Assembly (NCBI GenBank): GCA_012800135.1
Contig: JAAZJV010000259.1
Span: 1-20,010 of the forward strand
Origin: Clostridiaceae bacterium
Lineage (GTDB): Bacteria > Bacillota > Clostridia > Saccharofermentanales > DTU023
Length of the DNA stretch: 20,010 bases
Direction of reading: 5' to 3'
A program made the position numbers and the translations under genes. This document shows positions 8,135-14,497 of this stretch, one piece after another. Numbering within the stretch: position 1 is the stretch's first letter; each line of letters opens with the position of its first letter. The notes under the pieces were generated by a model, which saw only the letters and a list, made by a program, of their open reading frames with translations, made no database searches and was not told the origin of the DNA.

Positions 8135-9577
8135 CTAAGATGATTTTTTATCAGCATCAGCGACCGCAGCTTTTAACATGTCTTCTGCAAGGATGGGATT
8201 GGCTCGTCCTTGCGTCTTTTTCATGATATAGCCCATGAGCGCGCGCATGGCAGGCGTTCTTCCCTTGAGATAATCATTAACGGCACGAATATTCGAACGG
8301 ACGGCTTCATCGACGATGGGTTGAAGCACCTTGGGATCGTTGATCTGCGCGAGATGATTTTCTTCGACGTAGGCTGCCGGATCTTGATCATTTTCGAGCA
8401 AGACTTTCAGGACTTTTCTCCCGGTGTTGCTGTTGATGACATCCTTTCCCAGAAGATCGGCGAGTGCGCCAAGTGTCTCGGGTGAAAGCGGCGCTTCCGT
8501 TTCGTCTTCGCCGAAAAGCGGTGCTAAATCAGTTAAAATCAAGCTGACAAGCGTCTTCGGATGAGCCGTTTCTTTTACGGCCGCCTCGAAGAAATCAGAA
8601 AGATCTTTATCGGCAGTCAGACGTTCCGCTTCGTAATCGCTGAGGTCATATGCGTCCTTGTACATTGCTTTTCGCTCGTCGGAAAGGCGGGGCATCGACG
8701 ATTGGATCTTTGCGATCATTTCATTGTCGACAAGCACTTCTCCTAAATCAGGATCAGGGAAATAGCGGTAATCGGCTGCGCTCTCCTTTTTGCGAAGGGC
8801 GCTTGTTAGTCCCGTTTTCTCATCGAACCGGCGTGTCTCTTGGACAATGATTTCGCCGTCTTCAATGAGGGCGACCTGGCGCTTAAATTCGCTTTCGATG
8901 GCGCGGGCAACGAAGTTGAAAGAGTTGATGTTCTTCATTTCGACGCGTTTGCCTAAAAGCGTCTCGCCTTTTTTCCTGACTGACAAGTTTACGTCGCAAC
9001 GAAGAGAACCCTCATTCATTTTACCGTCGGAGACGTCCGTGTATCGCACGATAGCGCGCAGTTTCCTAAGAAAGGCGACGGCCTCTTCACCGCTTCTAAT
9101 GTCGGGTTCAGTCACAATTTCAATGAGCGGCACGCCACAGCGGTTGCAGTCGACCAGCGAGTGATCTTCGTGATGGATCAGTTTGCCGGCATCTTCCTCT
9201 AGATGGATGCGATTGATTCGGATTCGCCGCATACCGTCTTCTGTTGCGACATCCACGTAGCCGCCTGAGCAGATTGGCGAAAAATTCTGTGTCACCTGAT
9301 AGGCTTTCGGCAGATCGGGGTAGAAGTAGTTCTTGCGATCAAAGCGCGAAGACGGCGCGATGTCACAGTGTAGCGCAAGACCCGCGCGGACGGCGAATTC
9401 AACACATTCTTGGTTGAGAAGCGGCAGTGAACCGGGCATCGCTAGGCAAACGGGACAGACCTGCGTGTTAGGAGGCGCGCCAAATGTTGTCGAACAGCCG
9501 CAGAACAGCTTTTGCGGCGTTTTCAGTTCGACATGGACCTCAAGGCCGATAACACTTTCGTAATCTGTGACACTCAT
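8135..9577 (-). CDS. gatB: Asp-tRNA(Asn)/Glu-tRNA(Gln) amidotransferase subunit B
   Basis: GatB is the kinase-like subunit that phosphorylates the misacylated Asp-tRNA(Asn) or Glu-tRNA(Gln), so that ammonia from GatA can amidate it. The 480-aa protein opens with YESVIGLEVHVELKT. A zinc site follows (C26xC28...C41xxC44). Next come the cradle motifs (HLEEDAGKL, VPLIEIVTEPD, MNEGSLRCDVN), then the helical and YqeY-like tail that contacts tRNA (about 330-480, ending GRANPILAEDMLKAA). The ATG at 9577 follows the gatA stop by one base and fits family starts best. An in-frame ATG at 9589, overlapping gatA, is the alternative. The ribosome-binding site is weak, so coupling to gatA is likely. Confidence 0.97.
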   Translation of the reverse strand: MSVTDYESVIGLEVHVELKTPQKLFCGCSTTFGAPPNTQVCPVCLAMPGSLPLLNQECVEFAVRAGLALHCDIAPSSRFDRKNYFYPDLPKAYQVTQNFSPICSGGYVDVATEDGMRRIRINRIHLEEDAGKLIHHEDHSLVDCNRCGVPLIEIVTEPDIRSGEEAVAFLRKLRAIVRYTDVSDGKMNEGSLRCDVNLSVRKKGETLLGKRVEMKNINSFNFVARAIESEFKRQVALIEDGEIIVQETRRFDEKTGLTSALRKKESAADYRYFPDPDLGEVLVDNEMIAKIQSSMPRLSDERKAMYKDAYDLSDYEAERLTADKDLSDFFEAAVKETAHPKTLVSLILTDLAPLFGEDETEAPLSPETLGALADLLGKDVINSNTGRKVLKVLLENDQDPAAYVEENHLAQINDPKVLQPIVDEAVRSNIRAVNDYLKGRTPAMRALMGYIMKKTQGRANPILAEDMLKAAVADADKKSS

Positions 9578-9578
9578 A

Positions 9579-11069
9579 CTATTTTCCATTTCTCTTTTCG
9601 TGAAAAAGACGGGGACGAGGCAAGCGATCGTGAGCGTCTTCATAGGCTGCTGCCAACATGTAAAGTCGCCCCTCCGAAAATCGCGGACCGATCAATTGAA
9701 GTCCGAGCGGGAGCCCTTCTTCTGTAAGCCCGCTAGGAAAAGCCAGCGCAGGAAGTCCTGCAAGCGGCGCCAGCACGGTGAAGCGATCCGATGAATATTG
9801 CCCGTTGAGCGATTCGTCGCCGTGTGCGCCGAAAAGCGGTGCCGGTCCAATTGTCACGGGAGCAAGAATGGCGTCGCACGCATTGAACAGCGTATTCAAC
9901 GTTTGAATCACTAACGTGCGGATTCGGGTCGCTTTCTCGTAATAAATTTCATAGTTTTCTTTAGAAAGAAGATAGCTTCCGAGTAAAACACGGGACTTTA
10001 CTTCGAGACCGAGCGCATCGGAACGAGAGCGGATGTAGATGTCATCGACGGTTTCAGCTTCGGCTGAGCGATAACCGTAATGGATGCCGTCGTAGCGGTT
10101 GATCGCGGAATATCCTTCGGCGCTTGTCAAAAGATAGTACGCCGCAAGCGCCTCCTGCAAATGAGGGAACGACAACGGCACCAGGCGAGCCCCCTCCGAG
10201 GAATAGAATTGAAGCGCGCGTTCTATGGCGTCGCGCACGGCGGGATCCAGTCCGTTTGAGAATTCCTCGATATAGCCGATGACCGGGTTGCCGAAGGTGG
10301 TTTCAATCGAGCCGACGTAGCCGCCTTCAGGGATGGGGGCAAACCGAGAAGACATGCCGTCTTTCGGATCGCGGACGGCAATCGCATCCAACACCGCCGC
10401 GTTATCGCGCACAGTTCTTGTCATGGGACCGGTCTGATCGAAGGAGGATGCATACGCCGTGACGCCGCGGCGCGAAATTAAACCATAAGTCGGGCGCATG
10501 CCAACAAGACCGCAGTACGCTGCCGGCTGGCAAATCGACCCGCCTGTGTCAGTGCCAAGCGCGTATACTGCTTCGCCTGCGGCCACAGCTGCCGCGGAGC
10601 CTCCCGAGCTTCCACCCGGAACACGCGTCGTATCATAAGGATTAAGGGTGGCATGAAACGCGGAGGCTTCGGACGAATCGCCCATGGCAAACTCATCCAT
10701 ATTCGTTTTGCCGAGAAAGACGGCTCCACTTTCGCGTAAAAGCGTCACTACATAGGCGTCATACGCCGGAACAAAGTGTTCCAGCATACGTGAAGCGTTG
10801 GTGGTGCGCACACCTGCCGTCGCGATGTTGTCTTTTAAAGCGGCGGGAATGCCGGCAAGCAAACCGGGATCGTAGCCTTCCTTCAAACGCTGATCGACCG
10901 TTTTTGCCATTGCGAGCGCGTCGTCTTCGGTCACAGTGATGTAAGCGCCGACGGACGGCTCCAATTGCTCAATGTTTTGAAGGAAAGCGCGGGTGATTTC
11001 AGAAGAAGAAAGGTCGCCTTTCCTAAGAGCTGCGGCCATTTCCTGTATTGTCATGTCGGTTATCGTCAT
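9579..11069 (-). CDS. gatA: Asp-tRNA(Asn)/Glu-tRNA(Gln) amidotransferase subunit A
   Basis: GatA is the glutaminase subunit that releases ammonia for GatB. The 496-aa protein belongs to the amidase-signature family, with the Ser-cisSer-Lys triad in place: Lys79 (ALKDN), Ser154 or neighbour (PGGSSGGSAAAV) and nucleophile Ser178 (DTGGSI). An oddity is that the residue two after the nucleophile, usually Arg in GatA (GGSIRQPA), is Cys180 here. A ribosome-binding site GAGAGG lies about 7 nt before the ATG at 11069, in the 10-nt gap after the aspS::gatC stop. The order gatC-gatA-gatB is the common one, with gatC carried by the upstream fusion. Confidence 0.97.
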   Translation of the reverse strand: MTITDMTIQEMAAALRKGDLSSSEITRAFLQNIEQLEPSVGAYITVTEDDALAMAKTVDQRLKEGYDPGLLAGIPAALKDNIATAGVRTTNASRMLEHFVPAYDAYVVTLLRESGAVFLGKTNMDEFAMGDSSEASAFHATLNPYDTTRVPGGSSGGSAAAVAAGEAVYALGTDTGGSICQPAAYCGLVGMRPTYGLISRRGVTAYASSFDQTGPMTRTVRDNAAVLDAIAVRDPKDGMSSRFAPIPEGGYVGSIETTFGNPVIGYIEEFSNGLDPAVRDAIERALQFYSSEGARLVPLSFPHLQEALAAYYLLTSAEGYSAINRYDGIHYGYRSAEAETVDDIYIRSRSDALGLEVKSRVLLGSYLLSKENYEIYYEKATRIRTLVIQTLNTLFNACDAILAPVTIGPAPLFGAHGDESLNGQYSSDRFTVLAPLAGLPALAFPSGLTEEGLPLGLQLIGPRFSEGRLYMLAAAYEDAHDRLPRPRLFHEKRNGK

Positions 11070-11079
11070 GGAACGCCTC

Positions 11080-13176
11080 TCATTCTACAACCGGAGGAAC
11101 GACGATGAAACCATCGCGTGTCTCTGCAGTATTGGAAAGCAGCTGGTCGCGTGTTGCGCCGGGCGTCTCATCCGGCTTCAGGAAGACGTCCTTTTCATCG
11201 GAAGGTGAAATCGTCATCGGTACGCCCTCTGTATCGACCTTTTGCATGTTTTCGGCAAGGTCAATGAGATAATTAAGGCGTTTGTGAACGAGCCGTTCCT
11301 CATCATCTGTGAGCGATAGGCGAGTTTGCGCCTCCAGCTCGGGAAGGTTAATAAGCGGTGTTTTGCGTTTTAGCGTACTCGACATCTTTTCTTGCGCCTC
11401 CGCGGCATCGCTTCCCTTTGCAAGCTGAATACCGAGGACGGATAGCTGTGCCGGATCTACGGGGGACGGCGCTTCGGTCAAAAGGCAGGACGCGTCGCGT
11501 ATTTTCGGGAATGCGATGACGTCACGCAGGGAGTCTTCTCCTGCGAGCAGCATGACTAGACGGTCGAGTCCGAACGCAAAACCTCCGTGAGGTGGCGCTC
11601 CGTAACGGAATGCGTTCAGAAGGAAGCCGAAACGGCTGTTAATTTCGTCTTCTTCCAATCCCAGCGCCTCAAATACTTTTCTTTGTATATCGCTTCGATG
11701 GATACGAATGCTGCCCGATCCGAGTTCCGTGCCGTTTAAGACGACGTCGTACGCCTGTGAGCGCACGCGCGCCGGATCGGAAAGCAGATAAGGAAAATCT
11801 TCTTCGTAGGGCATCGTGAAGGGGTGATGCTGCGCGACCCAACGACGATCCTCTTCGCGATATTCAAACATCGGGAAATCGGTGATCATGCAGAATGCGA
11901 ATTTTGCGGGATCGCGGAGTTCAAGCATATCGCCGATTAGAAGACGCAGAGCGCCGGTGACGCGGCGCGACACGGAGAGTTCGTCCGCTGAGAAAAGGAC
12001 GAAGTCGCCCGGTTTTGCGTCGACAAGGCGCAACAATACGTCCATGTCCTCTTTCGAGATGAACTTTGACAAGATGGAATAAACTTCTCCTTCAGGACGC
12101 CAAGCAATCCAAGCCATGCCGCCCGCACCTTGTGAGATGGCAAAGTCGGTCAGCTGTTCGATCGTTGCGCGTGTGAAGTCAGATTTTCCGGGAACAGTGA
12201 TCGCGCGCACAACGCCGCCTTTTTCAACGGCTTTTTTAAAAACGGTGAAGGTGGATGTCGCCGCGTAGGAGGTGATGTCAACAACAGGAAGCGCGAAACG
12301 AAGATCGGGTTTGTCCGATCCGTACGTGTCCATCGCTTCTTGCCAAGTGAGGCGGCGAAACGGACGTATAAGCTCAATGTCCATCACATCGCGTATCAGG
12401 TGATAGAAAAGCTCTTCCAGTAGTGCGAGCACGTCTTCTTGTTCGACGAACGACATCTCAAGGTCAAGCTGAGTAAATTCAGGCTGGCGATCGGCGCGCA
12501 GATCTTCATCACGGAAGCAGCGCGCAATCTGGTAATAGCGATCAAAACCGGAAACCATCAGGAGTTGCTTGAAAATTTGGGGAGATTGCGGCAACGCATA
12601 AAATGAGCCGGAGTGGACTCGACTTGGAACGAGATAGTCTCGCGCACCTTCCGGCGTGCTTTTTGTCAGCATCGGCGTTTCGACATCGACGAAGCCATGG
12701 TCATCCATGAATCGTCTTATCGAGCTGACGATACGGTGTCGGAAACGGAGATTGTTTCGCAAGATCGGTCGTCTGAGATCTAAGAACCGATAGCGGAGAC
12801 GCAGCTCCTCGTTGACGTCATCGGCGTCTGCCGGATTAAAGGGCAGGTTATCGCAGGGGGACAACAGTTCGGCTTCTCTTACGCGTAGTTCAACGGTGCC
12901 TGTTGCGATTTTCGGATTGATGGTTTCCTCATCGCGTAACGCGATCAGACCGCGCGCCAAAAGTACCGATTGATTTCGGACACGCTCCGCGAGCTTAAAC
13001 GTCGCCTCGTCGGTTAACATCGGGTTGAAAACGACCTGAAGGGTTCCTTCTCGGTCGACAAGATCGATGAAGATCACGCCGCCCATGTCGCGCTTTGTTT
13101 CCACCCAGCCGCATGCGCAGGCTTCGACACCTACATCTTTTTCAGAAAAAAGACCGCAGTAATTTGTTCGTTTCAT
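11080..13176 (-). CDS. aspS: Aspartyl-tRNA synthetase fused to GatC
   Basis: This single 698-aa reading frame joins two proteins. Residues 1-585 are a complete bacterial class II AspRS that attaches Asp to tRNA: an OB-fold anticodon domain (1-105), motif 1 near [20 protein letters not shown], motif 2 [16 protein letters not shown], a GAD insert (about 285-415) and motif 3 [15 protein letters not shown] 23-residue hydrophilic linker (586-608) follows. Residues 609-698 are a whole GatC ([26 protein letters not shown], ending [11 protein letters not shown]), the belt subunit that wraps GatA and GatB. The start at 13176 (MKRTNYCG) matches AspRS starts. The nearest AGGAG is 17 nt upstream, longer than usual. 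gatA begins 10 nt after the stop, so the operon makes AspRS-GatC, GatA and GatB. Confidence 0.95.
11083..11352 (-). other. gatC: GatC domain of the AspRS-GatC fusion
   Basis: This marks the 90 codons homologous to stand-alone GatC (usually about 95 aa), from [19 protein letters not shown] to the C-terminal PPVVE. No separate gatC is present between aspS and gatA, so this domain must supply the GatC function unless another copy exists elsewhere. A potential internal start (ATG at 11385-11383, on the minus strand) would yield a free 101-aa GatC. Confidence 0.9.
11383..11401 (-). promoter_or_regulatory. Possible internal ribosome-binding site and start codon for free GatC
   Basis: On the minus strand, GGAGG (plus-strand CCTCC, 11397-11401) precedes an in-frame ATG (11385-11383) by 11 nt, exactly in the linker between AspRS and GatC. 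The codons it overlaps encode AAEAQEKM. The spacing is slightly long but usable. It looks like the remains, or a working copy, of the ancestral gatC start. Confidence 0.4.
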
Positions 13177-13223: not shown

Positions 13224-13417
13224 CAATGCCGTGACGGTAAGAAGCATGCCTTTAGCGGGGATGATATGATAATGTACAAGCCGATACGCCAATAAATGGA
13301 AGCAAATCGGTACGCAGTAAATGCAGAGAAAGCCTTATAGCCTTGCCGCAAAGAGTAGCACGCTATTCGCGGTGAGATGTCTGACGTCAGGCGAAGCGGA
13401 AATTGGATGGTGATAGC

Positions 13418-14497
13418 ATGACAAAAGGAGAAAACCTTCGGAGCAATATTCACCATGTGGCGCTCATATTTGAAGGTGGCGGGATGCGAGCCAGCTATAC
13501 TGCCGGCTTTGTGACGATGCTGCTTGAACAGCAACTCTACTTTGACTATGTTGCCGGTATTTCTGCCGGTTCTTCCCATGCGGTCAACTACATCTCACGC
13601 GATATGTTGCGTGCGCGCTTATCTTTTACGGATTTAGCAGAAGATCCTTCATTCGGCGATGTTCGCACGTGGTTGCGCGGGCAAGGCTTCTTCAACGCGG
13701 AATACCTTTATTCAGAGTCGTCGCTTGCAGACGGTGTCATTCCTCTCGATTTTGATACATTTTTGCGCAATAACGCCGAATGTGTGATCGGCGCTTTTTT
13801 GAAGAATGAGGGGCGTATGGTGTATTGGCGCAAGTATGACTACGTGACGATCGATGATCTGACGATTCGGGCGCGTGCGTCGTCCACGGTTCCTTATCTG
13901 ATGCCGGACACCGTGATTGATGGAAAAACTTATGTTGACGGGGGTGTCGGCGAAGCTATTCCCCTTGATATCGCGGAAAAAGACGGCTACGACCGATTCG
14001 TGATTGTTTTGACCCGACCGCGCGGCTTTCGCCAGGAACCGCCGGTGCGTTTGGCAATTATCGATCATTTTCTGAGTCAACATCCTGTTCAGAAAGAAGC
14101 GCTCATGACGCGATATATACGATACAATGACACGCTTAGGAGAATAGAGCGGCTTGAGCGAGAAGGCAAAGCATACGTTTTTTATCCTGAGTATGAAGGC
14201 GTTCGCATGACAGAAAAAGGACGCGACAAATTGATGGAACAGTACGTCTTAGGCCACGAACAAGCCTATAAAGAGTTGCCTTTGTTACGGAGCTTTCTTG
14301 AGGACGTAAAAAAGGAGAAGTCCCTGACCTGCTTGAAGTACAGGGATTCCAAGACGCTCTTGAACGTGACGCCTGAACGCTTTAAAAAAATAGTATCAGG
14401 ATTGACAGACACGGGTCTGACAGAAAACGGTGATGAACCTGCATCGACATTGGATATGCCGGACACTAATCAAGAGAAAGACAAGGCTGCACCATGA
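13418..14497 (+). CDS. Patatin-like phospholipase family protein (YjjU-like)
   Basis: This is a probable lipid acyl hydrolase with a Ser-Asp dyad. The oxyanion loop is EGGGMRASYTAG (19-30), the nucleophile elbow GISAGSS places Ser49, and the catalytic Asp174 is in YVDGGVGEAIP. After the patatin core (about 12-205), the region with GKAYVFYPEY resembles the C-terminal part of the E. coli YjjU group. The last 40 residues are hydrophilic and low in complexity. Substrate is unknown and no signal peptide is seen, so it is likely cytoplasmic. The ATG at 13418 follows GGTG by about 5 nt; the in-frame TTG at 13403 is the alternative. The stop overlaps the sbcD start (ATGA), so expression is tied to the SbcCD nuclease. 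Confidence 0.88.
   Translation: MTKGENLRSNIHHVALIFEGGGMRASYTAGFVTMLLEQQLYFDYVAGISAGSSHAVNYISRDMLRARLSFTDLAEDPSFGDVRTWLRGQGFFNAEYLYSESSLADGVIPLDFDTFLRNNAECVIGAFLKNEGRMVYWRKYDYVTIDDLTIRARASSTVPYLMPDTVIDGKTYVDGGVGEAIPLDIAEKDGYDRFVIVLTRPRGFRQEPPVRLAIIDHFLSQHPVQKEALMTRYIRYNDTLRRIERLEREGKAYVFYPEYEGVRMTEKGRDKLMEQYVLGHEQAYKELPLLRSFLEDVKKEKSLTCLKYRDSKTLLNVTPERFKKIVSGLTDTGLTENGDEPASTLDMPDTNQEKDKAAP

Follow-up and report, generated by a model that had tools for sequence, protein, structure and literature searches.

The window analysed here is a stretch of 20,010 nucleotides from a Clostridiaceae genome (G000; 1.65 Mb in 348 contigs, 84% complete). It raises the question of why an aspartyl-tRNA synthetase (AspRS) should be fused to GatC of the amidotransferase GatCAB, and which tRNA such a protein might serve. 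Transamidosomes are thought to guard the genetic code in that a mischarged tRNA stays near its amidotransferase, and the complexes known to us consist of separate chains. A natural covalent version makes a direct test of channelling possible. Judging from the genome comparisons below, the fusion is quite probably a second AspRS that is dedicated to tRNA(Asn) and joined to the GatC of the Asp-tRNA(Asn) amidotransferase. The novelty would lie in a transamidosome that is made permanent and has its own dedicated synthetase.

The AspRS-GatC frame and its operon

The fusion gene (11080..13176) is located on the minus strand, as are all parts and genes of its operon, and encodes 698 amino acids between an ATG (13174-13176) and a TGA (11080-11082). 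Its first part (residues 1-587, 11416..13176) has the conserved columns of a bacterial-type AspRS and scores 811.9 bits against the NCBIfam aspS model NF001750 (cut-off 443). It contains an OB-fold anticodon-binding domain (PF01336, 48.8 bits; residues 22-105, 12862..13113), the class II core (PF00152 in Pfam, residues 122-559) and a GAD domain (PF02938, 68.7 bits; residues 313-401, 11974..12240), and thus the elements expected of a bacterial-type AspRS. The last part (residues 613-698, 11083..11340) is a full GatC that resembles solved GatC chains; PF02686 matches residues 622-693 over model positions 1-66 of 66 (43.6 bits, cut-off 23) and NCBIfam TIGR00135 matches residues 613-698 (49.5 bits, cut-off 47.1). 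Between the two lies a linker of about residues 588-612 (11341..11415), which is recognized by its variability, low pLDDT and dN/dS.

The gatA gene (9579..11069, 496 amino acids) starts 10 nt after the fusion stop, and a single base separates its own stop from gatB (8135..9577), which has 480 amino acids when counted from the ATG adjoining the gatA stop and consists of GatB_N and GatB_Yqey. GatA matches PF01425 (457 bits) and TIGR00132 (489.1 bits, cut-off 481.1). Its Lys-cisSer-Ser glutaminase triad is intact (K79, S154 and S178, in what we take to be the numbering of S. aureus GatA); the amidase triad of the yeast enzyme is described in the accessible part of PMC4027206. The initial annotation had proposed a complete AspRS and a complete GatC in one frame that heads an operon with gatA and gatB and leaves no separate gatC, and the coordinates and the domain matches agree with this proposal. 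In the profile search, the only GatC match of G000 is the fused one (in an assembly that is 84% complete). A promoter scan of the operon head found no sigma-70-type promoter, and no T-box or other Rfam leader was found at the window's own operon. About 230 bases upstream of the fusion, a patatin-like phospholipase with DUF6363 is encoded divergently (13403-14497, plus strand).

Fragmentation of the assembly into 348 contigs leaves room for the view that aspS and gatC were joined by an assembly or frameshift artefact. We compared 59 genomes, mostly incomplete and G000 included. In 33 of these, the sole GatC match is in frame with an AspRS, 14 are GatC-less and 12 have a free GatC. The fusions fall into clade A (26 genomes) and clade B (7 genomes). 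They are full-length through both domains in 29 of the 33 genomes, and a contig end cuts the fusion in G006, G012, G018 and G029 (G006 and G029 were assigned to clade A by genus and identity, outside the tree described below). Named MAG records (Clostridiaceae, Clostridiales and Mageeibacillus) returned 24 AspRS loci, of which 11 carry a full-length fusion at 62-96% identity and a twelfth carries a fusion fragment; by equal match positions, these records are largely the same genomes as in our set. Furthermore, the GatC part of a fusion was searched twice against 5.8 billion proteins. The 6 and 12 clusters obtained all combine AspRS with GatC domains, which is partly so by construction as candidates had only 0.55-1.75 times the fusion length and one of them (P0001) is the window's own protein. 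Since the architecture is conserved across genomes (33 of 59, and the 11 overlapping MAG records), we reject the artefact as practically negligible. The open frame and its conservation thus bear out that the synthetase is covalently joined to GatC.

The fusion is not supported as a trait of the whole phylum. In a sample of 398 genomes, the GatC matches listed with their frame lengths, which are the best-scoring ones and leave the middle-scoring genomes outside, all lie in frames below 260 amino acids. When 36 weak-scoring genomes were searched again, all 39 GatC matches were stand-alone.

The two halves might also work separately, either because the chain is cleaved or because free GatC is made from a start within the linker. 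An in-frame ATG is present at residue 598 (11383-11385) with a Shine-Dalgarno-like GGAGG upstream, and in the AlphaFold2 model the linker is of low confidence (pLDDT below 50 at residues 580-608). In this model, which rests on a shallow alignment, AspRS is confident over much of its length (residues 168-198 and 222-232 are also low) and two GatC helices are modelled, with no confident model for the GatC tail. However, the two nearest relatives lack the start at residue 598, and 0 of 11 other fusions examined have a start in the linker that is preceded by a Shine-Dalgarno-like sequence. The frame is unbroken in 29 genomes and in the contig-held parts of four more. Among close relatives, where the frame is likewise unbroken, dN/dS is highest in the linker (0.25-0.43), followed by GatC (0.10-0.13) and AspRS (0.04-0.05), and in the alignment of fusions the linker differs in length and sequence from one to the next. 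We therefore regard separate halves as improbable and continue with the fusion as one working chain.

Two AspRSs and the route to asparagine

The initial annotation had missed both a stand-alone AspRS and a GlnRS, so the fusion is not the only AspRS of this genome. The stand-alone AspRS of G000 (G000:C282:114-1868) is full-length and 50% identical to the AspRS of the fusion. Of the two stand-alone genes that had been named as speaking against the fusion, aspS thus exists and gatC was not found. A stand-alone AspRS is present in 30 of the 33 fusion genomes; in the remaining three (G008, G012 and G029; 69-84% complete) none was found. Of the absences that had been proposed for checking, AsnRS and a second gatC were not found, but glnS is present.

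To trace both copies, we inferred a quick IQ-TREE phylogeny of 89 AspRSs, in which rows are the loci fetched and the stand-alone copy of G013 was omitted due to unreadable letters. All 31 fusions in this tree group into a single clade (SH-aLRT 98) that includes clade A (99) and clade B (100). Another clade holds 44 stand-alone copies alongside single sequences from Lachnospiraceae and family f2. Of the 14 GatC-less genomes, 12 have their AspRS in this stand-alone-type clade (the other two, G025 and G058, are not in the tree). In GatC-less genomes, a mischarged tRNA(Asn) could not be corrected. Because its relatives serve such genomes, the stand-alone type is probably discriminating, that is, specific for tRNA(Asp).

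Position 31 distinguishes the two types as well. All 31 fusions compared have Met there (codon 13084..13086, minus strand, in the window), a residue seen in 0 of 58 non-fusion rows. Among 45 stand-alone rows the position is Leu in 36, Ile in 6, Phe in one and unreadable in two. The corresponding residue of P. aeruginosa AspRS, His31, is presumably a specificity residue of this non-discriminating enzyme. Non-discriminating AspRSs with Leu at this position exist. We thus rejected a His31 rule as proof of specificity and treat this single residue as suggestive. Furthermore, the 43 readable stand-alone rows share a two-residue loop deletion with AspRS1 of T. thermophilus, which the fusions lack.

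Which tRNA the fusion charges depends on the other routes to asparagine. No clade A genome (0 of 26) has an AsnRS over the TIGR00457 cut-off, as against 6 of 7 in clade B, 13 of 14 GatC-less genomes and 6 of 12 genomes with a free GatC; the difference between clade A and the GatC-less genomes gives a Fisher p of 1.2e-9 when genomes are treated as independent. Replacement of AsnRS by the fusion is thus not universal, since 6 of the 7 clade B genomes have both proteins. The asparagine synthetase AsnA occurs in 0 of 33 fusion genomes compared to 11 of 26 others (Fisher p=2.8e-5, kinship ignored), and AsnB at E<1e-15 in 6 of 26 clade A and 1 of 7 clade B genomes. G000, at its 84% completeness, yielded no AsnRS, no AsnA and no full-length AsnB; its two AsnB matches reach 27.3 bits each (Pfam cut-off 21) and cover 64 and 58 of 354 positions. 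The tRNA-bound route thus appears to be the only way found to Asn and Asn-tRNA(Asn) in this genome, as far as its gene content tells. GatCAB requires the U1-A72 pair of tRNA(Asn).

We also considered GatCAB as a source of Gln, which is unlikely since GlnRS occurs in 57 of the 59 genomes including G000 (the exceptions are G012 with none and G029 with fragments). With GlnRS present, GatCAB is not needed for Gln and is free for Asn. By elimination, as no AsnRS was found and the other AspRS is probably specific for tRNA(Asp), the fusion would be the enzyme that makes Asp-tRNA(Asn). The pair of paralogues in one genome may thus separate the charging of tRNA(Asp) from that of tRNA(Asn).

Conservation of the synthetase bears on two further explanations. 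All fusions keep 92 of 100 near-invariant AspRS columns unchanged, and 8 differ in some of them; the window's fusion departs at three (R40 to V, E69 to Q and I550 to L). This retention, together with an anticodon domain that lacks the two-residue deletion typical of stand-alone copies, would fit a fusion that also charges tRNA(Asp) and a stand-alone AspRS that is a partly redundant back-up. The AspRS of B. bacteriovorus prefers tRNA(Asp) by only 3-fold (according to the accessible part of PMC4206432), which points in the same direction. On the other hand, the stand-alone copy is retained in 30 of the 33 fusion genomes, suggesting a job of its own, and the fusion clade bears its own residue M31. 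We consider redundancy a real possibility, though not the one we favour. Conversely, the AspRS half might be a non-catalytic scaffold, with the full-length stand-alone AspRS of the genome charging both tRNAs. Most near-invariant columns are conserved and purifying selection on the AspRS part is strong; moreover, GatC-less genomes, in which mischarging is uncorrectable, rely on orthologues of the stand-alone copy. A scaffold is thus very improbable, and we retain a division of labour with the fusion acting on tRNA(Asn).

A second AspRS is described as rare: apart from Deinococcus-Thermus, the accessible part of PMC4206432 counts 15 genera, of which 10 lack AsnRS. In the same source, C. acetobutylicum and some Actinomycetales have, as here, an extra AspRS beside the indirect Asn route, and its accessible text mentions no fusion for them. 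Thermus and Deinococcus likewise have a second AspRS for tRNA(Asn) (PMC4206432, accessible part), AspRS2, which is archaeal-type, unlike that of the window. Within our own set, family f2 has a free GatC, two AspRSs and no AsnRS over the cut-off; in the three genomes examined (L106-L111; G048, G056 and G037) one AspRS has His31 as in P. aeruginosa, and its partner varies in origin.

A proposed covalent transamidosome compared to known systems

We propose the following mechanism. The GatC part would bind GatA and GatB, so that every AspRS chain would carry an amidotransferase. The AspRS part would aspartylate tRNA(Asn), and the resulting Asp-tRNA(Asn) would be converted to Asn-tRNA(Asn) on the spot with ammonia that GatA releases from glutamine. 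This route would take the place of AsnRS and apparently, within the genus of the window, of asparagine synthetase too. A stabilising effect of GatC on the complex of GatA and GatB is described in PMC8406222 and PMC4027206 (accessible parts). From the architecture, assembly of this transamidosome should be independent of tRNA, and AspRS and GatC would be present in a 1:1 ratio. The idea of a permanent channel fits what is known of the M. tuberculosis and T. maritima systems described below.

Among the closest known systems, P. aeruginosa (PDB 4wj3) and M. tuberculosis each have an Asn-transamidosome that also combines a GAD-bearing bacterial-type AspRS with GatCAB; the AspRS part is 49% identical to 4wj3_M in a structural alignment. 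In these two species AspRS and GatC are separate chains, whereas the window has one chain and a second AspRS. According to the accessible part of PMC8406222, AspRS and GatCAB of M. tuberculosis join only with tRNA(Asn) and form no complex without tRNA, and the tRNA-independent complex of H. pylori requires a further protein. By its design, the fusion would need neither for the association of AspRS with GatCAB.

Two named entries come close to the architecture. The NCBIfam model NF009460 (PRK12820, bifunctional AspRS/GatC) has, by name, the same two activities in one protein, and its existence means that an AspRS/GatC architecture was already known to annotators. Its cut-off of 1379 is far above the scores of the window's protein (621 bits) and of a clade B protein (662.8 bits), which both score higher against plain AspRS. 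In PDB 3al0_C, from the Gln-transamidosome of T. maritima, the two proteins are also joined by a linker (GatC-linker-GluRS by chain name), but in reverse order and with GluRS in place of AspRS; we take this chain to be engineered. To our knowledge, the archaeal-type AspRS2 of Thermus and Deinococcus is not fused. Our literature searches, which covered few subscription journals and parts of the sources, found no natural AspRS-GatC fusion and no amidase-dead GatA.

A sister fusion with altered GatA

In the seven genomes of clade B (L097-L103, corresponding to G044, G052, G028, G020, G030, G036 and G033), the fusion is followed by an altered GatA, here termed GatA*, and gatB. GatA* of G020 matches PF01425 with 160 bits and TIGR00132 with 263 bits (cut-off 481), and its predicted fold is GatA-like (pLDDT 91.7; TM-score 0.92 to 4wj3_A). 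All seven fusion loci have lost the GGSSGGS block and carry A or S in place of the catalytic Lys, so that the Lys-cisSer-Ser triad is broken in each of them; the nucleophile position is Ser in only two. GatA* departs at 48 of 89 columns that are invariant in 13 other GatAs, and GatB of clade B retains 93 of 105 columns that are invariant in 20 other GatBs. The loss extends to database relatives. Among 57 aligned GatA relatives (of 120 listed among 7334 found), the block is missing in 35 and kept in 22. All 26 close GatA* clusters lack both the Lys and the block, and nine more distant clusters also lack the block, one of them with the Lys kept. Block-less GatA-like proteins beyond the close family include P0038 (Epulopiscium sp.), which has the Lys, P0044 and P0045 (Tissierella creatinophila; names as given by the source).

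These substitutions, read in the GatA of the fusion operons, suggest that GatB of clade B may draw on free ammonia when Asn is formed on the tRNA. For Gln, yeast GatFAB can carry out the corresponding reaction in vitro with ammonium chloride (PMC4027206, accessible part). As the amidase site is lost and AspRS-GatC and GatB are kept, clade B raises the question of whether tRNA-dependent Asn synthesis can run on ammonia. AsnA occurs in 0 of 7 clade B genomes and is present in both GatC-less genomes of genus g2 (G014 and G026). This exchange of AsnA and fusion is imperfect, as 5 of the 14 GatC-less genomes (G016, G019, G022, G025 and G049) lack AsnA and AsnB; two of the five belong to the genus of G028, and G044 of clade B has an AsnB-like match. 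We tentatively suggest an always-assembled, tRNA-independent factory for Asn-tRNA(Asn), with an ammonia-dependent version in clade B that would replace AsnA.

In two clade B genomes, a T-box precedes the fusion operon. It is located at L097:7865-8127 (minus strand) in G044 with 105.5 bits and at L098:7099-7352 (minus strand) in G052 with 114.6 bits (gathering threshold 93), and it ends 37 and 35 nt, respectively, before the likely fusion start. A third T-box (L104:2861-3128, plus strand) lies before an operon of archaeal-type AspRS, gatC, gatA and gatB in G057. GAAx-NNN-A is the usual T-box specifier register. Read in this register, the specifier is AAC (Asn) in L097, L098 and L104; the alternative register gives GAA, AAA and GAA, respectively. 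An Asn specifier at the two fusion operons would agree with a role of the fusion in charging tRNA(Asn). Three other clade B loci (L099, L100 and L102) have no T-box at E up to 0.1, and none reaches the gathering threshold in L101 (fewer than 350 bases upstream) and L103. In clade A, no T-box was found at five loci at E up to 0.5, nor at the gathering threshold in L006, L007, L009, L012, L015, L115, L116, L132 and L133 (the last two with fewer than 300 bases upstream available for the search).

The operon of G057 belongs to family f3 (L104, L105, L134, L135 and L136; G057, G038, G046, G043 and G054, respectively), in which an AspRS-like gene stands before a free gatC, gatA and gatB. L104, the f3 locus that was scored, encodes an archaeal-type AspRS (NF003483, 543 bits, cut-off 353), and the four other f3 loci have no T-box. 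This arrangement is a different, unfused solution.

Lastly, a fusion of two other synthetases occurs naturally in genus g5. In G023 (L149), GluRS and GlnRS share one frame that is open at the contig end. In G017, whose protein is the one covered by the profile scan, the GluRS-GlnRS fusion (L148:882-4061, plus strand) has 1059 amino acids, with TIGR00464 at residues 23-490 and TIGR00440 at residues 533-1054.
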